Positions 9,848-41,495 of a stretch of 64,000 bases of DNA are shown piece after piece (position 1 is the stretch's first letter; every line of letters begins with the position of its first letter). The stretch comes from Cryomorphaceae bacterium (GTDB lineage: Bacteria > Bacteroidota > Bacteroidia > Flavobacteriales_D > Sanyastnellaceae), in assembly GCA_016124575.1 (NCBI GenBank), contig WGNM01000001.1, forward strand, positions 1 to 64,000. Reading direction: 5' to 3'. The notes under the pieces are model-generated. The model had not been told where the DNA came from. It saw only the letters and a program-made list of their open reading frames with translations, and searched no databases. A program made the position numbers and the translations under genes.

Positions 9848-10048
9848 GAAAAAAGGAATGGATCGATCTGCTTTGATTCTAATTCAAACAGCATGGCAAA
9901 TGAAAAAAAGGGTGGAGATGAACTGCATTTCATAGCTTAATTCGCATACCGAGATTTAAAAACTCAAATGTGTTGTTCGCTTATTCTCCACAAAACTGTC
10001 ATTAAACACGCATTTACAAAATTCTCAACGGCATCCACAAAATGCCTA

Positions 10049-10079
10049 TTGACAGGCATTTCAGACTTTTGTACCTTCG
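10049..10079 (+). promoter_or_regulatory. Bacteroidota promoter of candidate small RNA, copy A
   Basis: -33 TTG (10049-10051), 20-nt spacer, -7 TACCTTCG (10072-10079, one mismatch to TAnnTTTG). Copy B at 41125-41155 has the same elements with the same spacing, and the alignment is ungapped for the 37 nt upstream of the TTG. Confidence 0.7.
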
Positions 10080-10083
10080 CTAT

Positions 10084-10138
10084 GCTCGGTTTGGATGGGC
10101 GGGGGCGGGCGGGACCCGCGAGGGTCAAGCCTTTGATT
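10084..10138 (+). ncRNA. candidate small non-coding RNA, copy A
   Basis: Predicted transcript start about 10084. The sequence is unusually G-rich for this genome and contains the hairpin GACCC-GCGA-GGGTC (10113-10126). The block 10012-10138 aligns with 41088-41216 with only a few one- to three-base gaps, including the promoter. No coding frame explains the conservation. The 3' end is not defined; the conserved part ends near 10138 and a tandem array follows. It could belong to a described Bacteroidota RNA family such as 6S-Flavo or Flavo-1, which I cannot test, or be a dispersed DNA repeat. The remainder of the 9836-10522 gap holds only the array and a terminator. Confidence 0.45.
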
Positions 10139-10204
10139 TTCAGTCCCTTTCTGCTTACTTTAAATCTATTCTCGGCTTCATCGCACTTCGCACTCCTTCT
10201 CTTT

Positions 10205-10369
10205 CTCACACTGTTCTTTCCTTATCGCTCTCATTCTCTATCTCACACTGTTCTTCCTTTATCGCTCTCATTCTCTTTCTCACACTGTTCTTCCTTTAAC
10301 GCTCTCATTCTCTTTCTCACACTGTTCTTCCTTTAACGCTCTCACTCTCTTTCTCACACTGTTTTTCCA
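10205..10369. repeat. 37-bp tandem repeat array (about 4.4 copies)
   Basis: The word CTCACACTG recurs at 10205, 10242, 10279, 10316 and 10353, exactly 37 bp apart. Units differ at only a few bases and are pyrimidine-rich on the plus strand. There are no spacers, so this is a minisatellite rather than a CRISPR array. 37 is not a multiple of three and the array is not part of a convincing gene. It lies between candidate RNA copy A and the terminator at 10465-10499. Confidence 0.92.
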
Positions 10370-40927: not shown

Positions 40928-41124
40928 TTTTTTTTAAGTCTTATAAAATACACATTTAATTCATCTTGGCTTCAGCGTGGTTGAAATCTAACGACGGCTG
41001 ATTGTAGAGTAAAGATTTGAGTGATAAATGCATATAGATACAAAAACAAACTTCTGTTTATCTCCAAGTTTTAGGCGAAAAACGATCATCTACAAAATTG
41101 TTTTCAGCACACACAAAGTGCCTA

Positions 41125-41155
41125 TTGACAAGGTTTTTGTGAGCGCTTACCTTTG
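41125..41155 (+). promoter_or_regulatory. Bacteroidota promoter of candidate small RNA, copy B
   Basis: -33 TTG (41125-41127), 20-nt spacer, perfect -7 TACCTTTG (41148-41155). Identical layout to copy A at 10049-10079. Confidence 0.75.
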
Positions 41156-41159
41156 CAGT

Positions 41160-41216
41160 GCACGGTGTTGACGGCGCGGGGGAGGGAGGGCCCGCAGGGC
41201 CTAAAAAGCCTCGATT
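41160..41216 (+). ncRNA. candidate small non-coding RNA, copy B
   Basis: Predicted start about 41160. A G-rich stretch is followed by the hairpin GGCCC-GCA-GGGCC (41189-41201) and then a conserved AAAAAGCC...GATT segment. Relative to copy A the second stem pair changes from A-T to G-C, a compensatory substitution. The 3' end is undefined. The rest of the 40892-41495 gap contains the DtxR promoter/operator at its left end and A/T-rich sequence without a recognisable gene. Confidence 0.45.
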
Positions 41217-41495
41217 GTAAATACATCCAATAAAAAACAATGCTTGTGAGATCATTGACTTCAACCACTGAGATTTTAGATTCACGATTGAAGAATCCTC
41301 TACTTCTTTTAACTCGACTTAATACAACTTCGGCAGCGGCAACGGCCTGAACAAAATCTGAAATCAACAAACAAATCATCAATTGTTCGTTACTTCAAAT
41401 AATCATCAATCAATTGCCGTTAGAAAAGCACCTTATTGAAACAAACTCAAATCCGAATTAAATGGCGCTTTGTTACTTAACCATTACAAATCAAC

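Follow-up and report, generated by a model that had tools for sequence, protein, structure and literature searches.

A dispersed noncoding element with a G-quadruplex motif, a covarying hairpin and a candidate competence-type operator in an uncultured Flavobacteriales family

Introduction

Multicopy small RNAs linked to competence and transcribed quadruplex sequences are both already known in bacteria. The csRNAs of Streptococcus pneumoniae are several highly similar noncoding RNAs under one regulator with a competence link (PMC4507080), and at the gonococcal pilE locus a promoter fires into quadruplex sequence, yielding a G4-associated sRNA, with the G-rich strand as the non-template strand (PMC3547852). 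GGGNATC repeats of Xanthomonas and Nostoc are dispersed intergenic G-quadruplex motifs, most of which are transcribed (PMC4692102), and the Flavobacteria are represented in Rfam 15 by structured noncoding RNAs such as Flavo-1 and 6S-Flavo.

The element described here brings features of these systems together in a combination that is new. Like the csRNAs as published, it has several near-identical noncoding copies, a common operator and a probable connection to competence; the csRNAs, however, number five, are run by CiaR and pair with comC, whereas the element has ~23 copies per genome, is quadruplex-rich and shares its operator with comEC. As at pilE, its promoter is aimed at a G-quadruplex motif that the non-template strand carries, a likeness at the sequence level only, but pilE has a single such locus upstream of the gene, for which no hairpin family, dispersed copies or competence operator has been described. 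The Xanthomonas and Nostoc motifs differ in being simple heptamer repeats without a promoter, operator or hairpin of their own, and no match to Flavo-1 or 6S-Flavo was found in the window or in 13 representative loci. We did not find the element family in the literature, although this is weak evidence as the papers covered were those under open licence.

Copy number and distribution

The window (the whole stretch of 64,000 nucleotides analysed, positions 1 to 64,000 of contig WGNM01000001.1) belongs to a draft genome of 3.68 Mb in 61 contigs, hereafter G000, in which a sequence profile (R1) and a hairpin model (R2) identified 23 strong copies of a noncoding element. Two of these, copies A and B, lie in the window (Table 1), and the alignment of 10012-10138 with 41088-41216, from which a preliminary description of the window had started, was recovered. 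That description regarded the element as two-copy, whereas a BLASTN search of G000 with window positions 10002-10150 (copy A) returned 22 matches (E=6e-73 to 8e-8) which, with the 23 strong profile matches, bear out its view that the similarity is not due to chance. It had missed the copy number, the G-quadruplex motif, the link to DNA-uptake genes and the operator half-sites, which are the most informative part.

Eighty-four copies from nine genomes were examined. R2 counted 8 copies in G001, 19 each in G016 and G033, 9 in G002 and 3 each in G012 and G031, while G081 yielded weaker forms and G015 a single copy (L170) that is probable or plausible. The element is restricted to ~six genera, all from a single uncultured family of the Flavobacteriales, with no genome from other families of the order matching at E<=0.001 in a draw of 399 Flavobacteriales genomes. 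A BLASTN match in another family (G037) was attributed to chance, as it sits inside an RNase H-like coding sequence, and a weak match in G065 (L132) was rejected for its resemblance to coding sequence. A degenerate pattern scanned against the GTDB collection hit only Flavobacteriales MAGs and four high-GC genomes, the latter judged to be chance matches. A possible distant relative in genus g6 (L063, G025:C32:9656) has a half-site resembling the operator, together with TTGACT..TAACTTTG and a hairpin of the sequence GGCCCCGAGGGGTC.

Several known identities were considered and rejected. A viral, phage or plasmid origin was rejected, with zero matches among the viral contigs, phage records and plasmids searched. 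No Rfam 15 family reached its gathering score in the window, and 13 representative loci gave nothing relevant at E<=1 save one chance snoRNA-like match; a known RNA family was rejected, leaving the element undescribed, as the preliminary description had supposed. An rRNA or tRNA promoter or leader does not fit, as no tRNA lies near any genus g1 copy and the 16S promoters of G000 differ. A DNA uptake sequence (DUS/USS) would be expected as a 10-12 nt word occurring ~1/kb, and the element is 165 nt long with ~23 strong copies in 3.68 Mb.

Table 1 Features of the two element copies in the window
Feature	Position	Strand	Remarks
Copy A, whole conserved element (class 1)	9981..10145	+	Alignment of 31 copies; longer than the earlier 10012-10138 at both ends
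TTTATCTCC box, 5' edge of element in genus g1 (copy A: TTATTCTCC)	9981..9989	+	
Copy A operator half-site 1, CATTTACAAAAT	10011..10022	+	Pair scores 30.7 bits, top site of the window on both strands
Copy A operator half-site 2, CATCCACAAAAT	10032..10043	+	21 bp from half-site 1
Copy A -33 element TTGACA	10049..10054	+	Invariant in g1 alignment
Copy A -7 element TACCTTCG (TAnnTTTG type)	10072..10079	+	Predicted start near 10084
Copy A G-quadruplex-capable tract GGGCGGGGGCGGGCGGG	10097..10113	+	
Copy A hairpin GACCC-GCGA-GGGTC	10113..10126	+	
Tandem array 37-bp x 4.9, directly 3' of copy A	10188..10368	+	Flank, outside conserved core
Copy B, whole conserved element (class 2)	41057..41221	+	Orthologous copy in G001 (L051)
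Copy B operator half-site 1, CATCTACAAAAT	41087..41098	+	
Copy B operator half-site 2, CACACACAAAGT	41108..41119	+	
Copy B -33 element TTGACA	41125..41130	+	
Copy B -7 element TACCTTTG	41148..41155	+	Predicted start near 41160
Copy B G-tracts GGGGGAGGGAGGG	41178..41190	+	The 3' GGG of the hairpin serves as fourth tract
Copy B hairpin GGCCC-GCA-GGGCC	41189..41201	+	

Anatomy of the element

An alignment of 31 copies from two genus g1 genomes spans ~165 nt, running from the TTTATCTCC box ~67 nt 5' of the -33 box, and not from 37 nt before it as previously proposed, to ~20 nt past the hairpin. The order from 5' to 3' is two half-sites, -33 box, -7 box, predicted start, short variable leader, G-tracts and hairpin. 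Two direct 12-bp half-sites (CRTYYRYAAARTK), spaced 21 bp from start to start, are found in 82 of the 84 copies. Half-site 1 mostly lies 45/46, 55/56 or 66/67 nt from the start of the model, and such shifts by whole helical turns fit the expectation for a bound activator. The promoter is of the Bacteroidota -33/-7 type, its -7 consensus positioned as in PMC9723704, with TTGACA in genera g1 and g12 followed after 17 nt by the -7 box. Both window copies have the 20 nt between TTG and TA given in the preliminary description (TTGACA with TACCTTCG in copy A and with TACCTTTG in copy B), as well as its G-rich stretch and 5-bp hairpin.

Four runs of at least three G, separated by changing loops, follow ~14-20 nt past the predicted start and lead into the hairpin. 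The loops differ in sequence and length (A, C, T, AAA, CTA, ATA) while tracts of at least three G persist, four of them in all 58 copies tested: 24 have the four ahead of the hairpin, 31 rely on the hairpin's own 3' GGG and three attain four only with one loop of 8 nt. When quadruplexes were allowed in the folding (ViennaRNA), the predicted minimum-energy RNA structure included one in 82 of 84 copies.

The hairpin was fitted to a structure model in an alignment of 86 matches comprising 76 distinct rows (A5), in which 98.7% of cells are paired. Compensatory changes are seen at the outer pair (GC 60, AU 8, CG 4, UA 1), and slid versions of the hairpin gave no double changes. This is the one pair that covaries in the fitted alignment, the three others being invariant or near-invariant GC and uninformative; an alignment-free reading adds an exchange at the inner end, with stems including GGCCCG-GGA-CGGGCT and GGCCCT-GGA-AGGGCT. 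The further copies with covarying stems that the preliminary description had named as support for an RNA are present, and the many copies without promoter and stem that would have spoken for a dispersed DNA repeat are not, nearly all copies keeping both. An alternative conserved GCGGG/CCCGC hairpin was dropped because it is absent from CCCGGGACGGGC variants. Hairpin loops are GNA or GNNA in 76 of 81 cases; these form an exceptionally stable class in single-stranded DNA, while RNA favours GNRA.

Copies differ by indels of 1 and 2 nt within the core, between CGGT and the G-run, which exclude a conserved reading frame and with it a coding reading, in agreement with the earlier finding of no convincing coding frame. 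A conserved intrinsic terminator was not found, terminator-like sites occurring in 15 of 84 copies against ~7.5 expected after shuffling. Of the small RNA gene family originally proposed, what is upheld is a noncoding element, so far undescribed, that carries a promoter of its own; a discrete small RNA is a fair reading that we infer.

Conservation and genomic context

Orthologous copies are more conserved in the core than in the flanks. Between copy B and its counterpart on G001:C20 the region from -60 to +80 is 85-100% identical, most bins being 100%, compared to mostly 60-85% in the flanks, and at several orthologous sites the core is 95-100% identical compared to mostly 50-90% outside it. 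The same contrast is seen at C17/C200, G016:C44/G033:C59, G016:C125/G033:C83, G016:C78/G033:C75 and G012/G031, and the 3' flank differs between genera. The left neighbour of the copy on G000:C51 is homologous to the left neighbours of those on G016:C72 and G033:C10, so that one position may be common to genera g1 and g16. At three loci (C46/C156, C18/C216, C72/C10) the neighbours are orthologous but the core classes differ between two species, which could reflect either conversion or independent insertion.

Local tandem arrays adjoin several g1 copies, including a 15-bp x 21 array following the copy on G000:C18. Downstream arrays were rejected as proof of instability because their asymmetry is not clear (13 downstream versus 7 upstream of 79). 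A second dispersed sequence, TGACCCGTCCTAAAATAAGTTTACAG, lies directly 3' of many g1 copies (L019, L045, L047, L048, L049, L100 and others) and has no occurrence in the window. Upstream of a 16S rRNA gene (L044, G000:C31:4300-4950, minus strand) some five promoter-like units, similar to one another, stand in tandem, and a GAACGTTCTCAACAG-type sequence follows several of these.

An operator common to the element and DNA-uptake genes

The double half-site, searched with two mismatches allowed and with the pattern read backwards as a control, yielded 42 sites in G000 versus 2 for the control, and 2-26 sites versus 0-1 in seven relatives. About half of the G000 sites belong to the element; the remainder precede a comF-like gene, yraN (UPF0102), DUF2851, a tyrosine recombinase, several degenerate IS1595-like genes and other genes. 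With a score matrix trained on elements only, the 300 bp upstream of comEC contain a site in each of the five genomes where this region is usable (24.5, 20.5, 19.4, 16.3 and 15.3 bits), and the start codon follows at 38-53 bp. In third-order random sequence a score of 15 bits occurs ~4 times per Mb, so that ~1/800 such upstream regions would do so by chance. Sites precede comM in both g16 genomes (30.4 and 27.7 bits) and not in G000, G012 or G002, while DUF1343 has a site in both g16 genomes and in that genus only. Weaker sites of modest score precede dprA in four of six genomes (12.8, 12.8, 10.3 and 7.3 bits). The controls radA and lon have no operator site, with scores of at most 5.9.

Transformation of Riemerella anatipestifer requires comEC, dprA, comF and a DUF1343 gene, and it is lower in yifB (comM) mutants (PMC8459023). 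As the double half-site is common to the elements and to DNA-uptake genes, the elements appear to be members of a DNA-uptake (competence) regulon, which suggests that the element takes part in natural transformation. That the regulon is one of competence we infer from the gene content of uncultured genomes; we found no published operator for a Bacteroidota competence regulon, weak evidence again since openly licensed literature was covered. Overall, we consider it likely that the element forms a genuine noncoding family, under selection and belonging to a competence-type regulon.

Other sequences were observed next to sites of this type. At least five, and probably about eight, IS1595/ISXO2-like genes lie under a competence-type operator (L223, L226, L228, L231 and L234; contig ends G000:C22, C60, C16, C52, C2 and C50), and Pfam matches, which cover a zinc ribbon but no more of the DDE domain than its C-terminal part, suggest inactivated, possibly domesticated, transposases. 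In L083 and L084 (G012:C1:3763964, G031:C12:232047) this operator and promoter type is followed by another RNA-like sequence, distinct from the element, whose hairpin (AAAAGCGGCGGG..CTCGCTGCTTTTTT) clearly resembles a terminator; it may be a second small RNA belonging to the regulon. Another G-rich variant, GGGGGTGGGTGGGCCCGCGGGAGCGGCGGGC, is found 3' of the operator in L240 and L248 (G012:C1:3372054, G031:C12:292300). Two operator-like sites with 2 mismatches in G015 (L244 and L256; G015:C10:30637 and G015:C123:2821) precede a PIF1-like helicase and a Y1 (IS200-like) transposase gene. PIF1-like helicases are of a class known to unwind quadruplexes.

Candidate modes of action

Our leading reading, held tentatively and at somewhat under even odds, is a family of competence-coregulated noncoding RNAs with a G-quadruplex and a hairpin that act in trans. 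In the DNA-uptake state a putative activator would bind the two half-sites just 5' of the -33 box and turn on the ~23 copies along with comEC, dprA and comF. Each copy would then give rise to a short RNA starting ~14-20 nt before the G-quadruplex and continuing into the small hairpin, and the many copies would together supply a strong dose of structured RNA. Such an RNA would most likely act through a structured module that binds a protein; base-pairing with mRNA is less likely, since the sole conserved unpaired stretch is the G-run.

Hairpin covariation, dose and a standard promoter would fit equally an element that acts in cis as DNA, a serious alternative that we rank a little behind the trans-acting RNA. 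Here competence-activated transcription would leave the RNA on the C-rich template strand and the displaced G-rich strand would fold into a G-quadruplex and a DNA hairpin, a structured single strand that might attract recombination proteins and render the copies sites of strand exchange, by analogy with gonococcal pilE, where the layout is the same, the promoter firing into a G-tract of the non-template strand (PMC3547852). The persistence of G-tracts between variable loops and the arrays beside several g1 copies are in keeping with this, and the DNA-type loops of the hairpin, the missing terminator and the class differences between nearly identical genes at the three orthologous loci lean towards DNA; yet the arrays show no clear preference for the downstream over the upstream side, and the flanks of the class-swapped loci differ too, making independent insertion possible. 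That the copies are competence-switched recombination sites, ~23 chromosomal extrusions of quadruplex and hairpin guiding strand exchange with incoming DNA or between copies, is conceivable though less likely than not.

The trans-acting RNA reading also has to be set against two further explanations. A selfish dispersed repeat (MITE- or REP-like) that captured a competence promoter and spreads in the competent state without benefit to the host would account for the many intergenic copies, several of them tandem pairs, and for an operator that would also drive degenerate IS1595-like genes and, in G015, the Y1 transposase. This is improbable, however, given that terminal inverted repeats were not found (the block starts with TTTATCTCC and ends near TTTGATTTTCA), that several copies occupy orthologous positions in a pair of species and that g1 and g16 have one left neighbour in common, that the core is more conserved than its flank, and that covariation of the hairpin over several genera indicates selection on structure. 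Least credible by some distance are ordinary competence promoters of downstream genes. Among 77 copies with both neighbours visible to a simple ORF caller, 30% have a co-directional gene downstream, as this would predict, but 54 (70%; binomial p=5e-4 versus one half) face an antisense gene as the nearest one downstream, which indicates that most copies stand alone, and 32 (42%) lie between convergent neighbours, with only 8 between divergent ones; nor would a promoter require the strict G-tracts and hairpin.

Implications

The 21-bp double half-site before comEC, comM, comF and dprA provides a testable candidate operator from which the members of the regulon could be listed. The noncoding family joined to it, undescribed until now, numbers tens of copies per genome and retains its core of quadruplex and hairpin from genus to genus. 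The element would tie natural transformation in these bacteria to a dose-amplified structured RNA or to transcription-driven quadruplex DNA.
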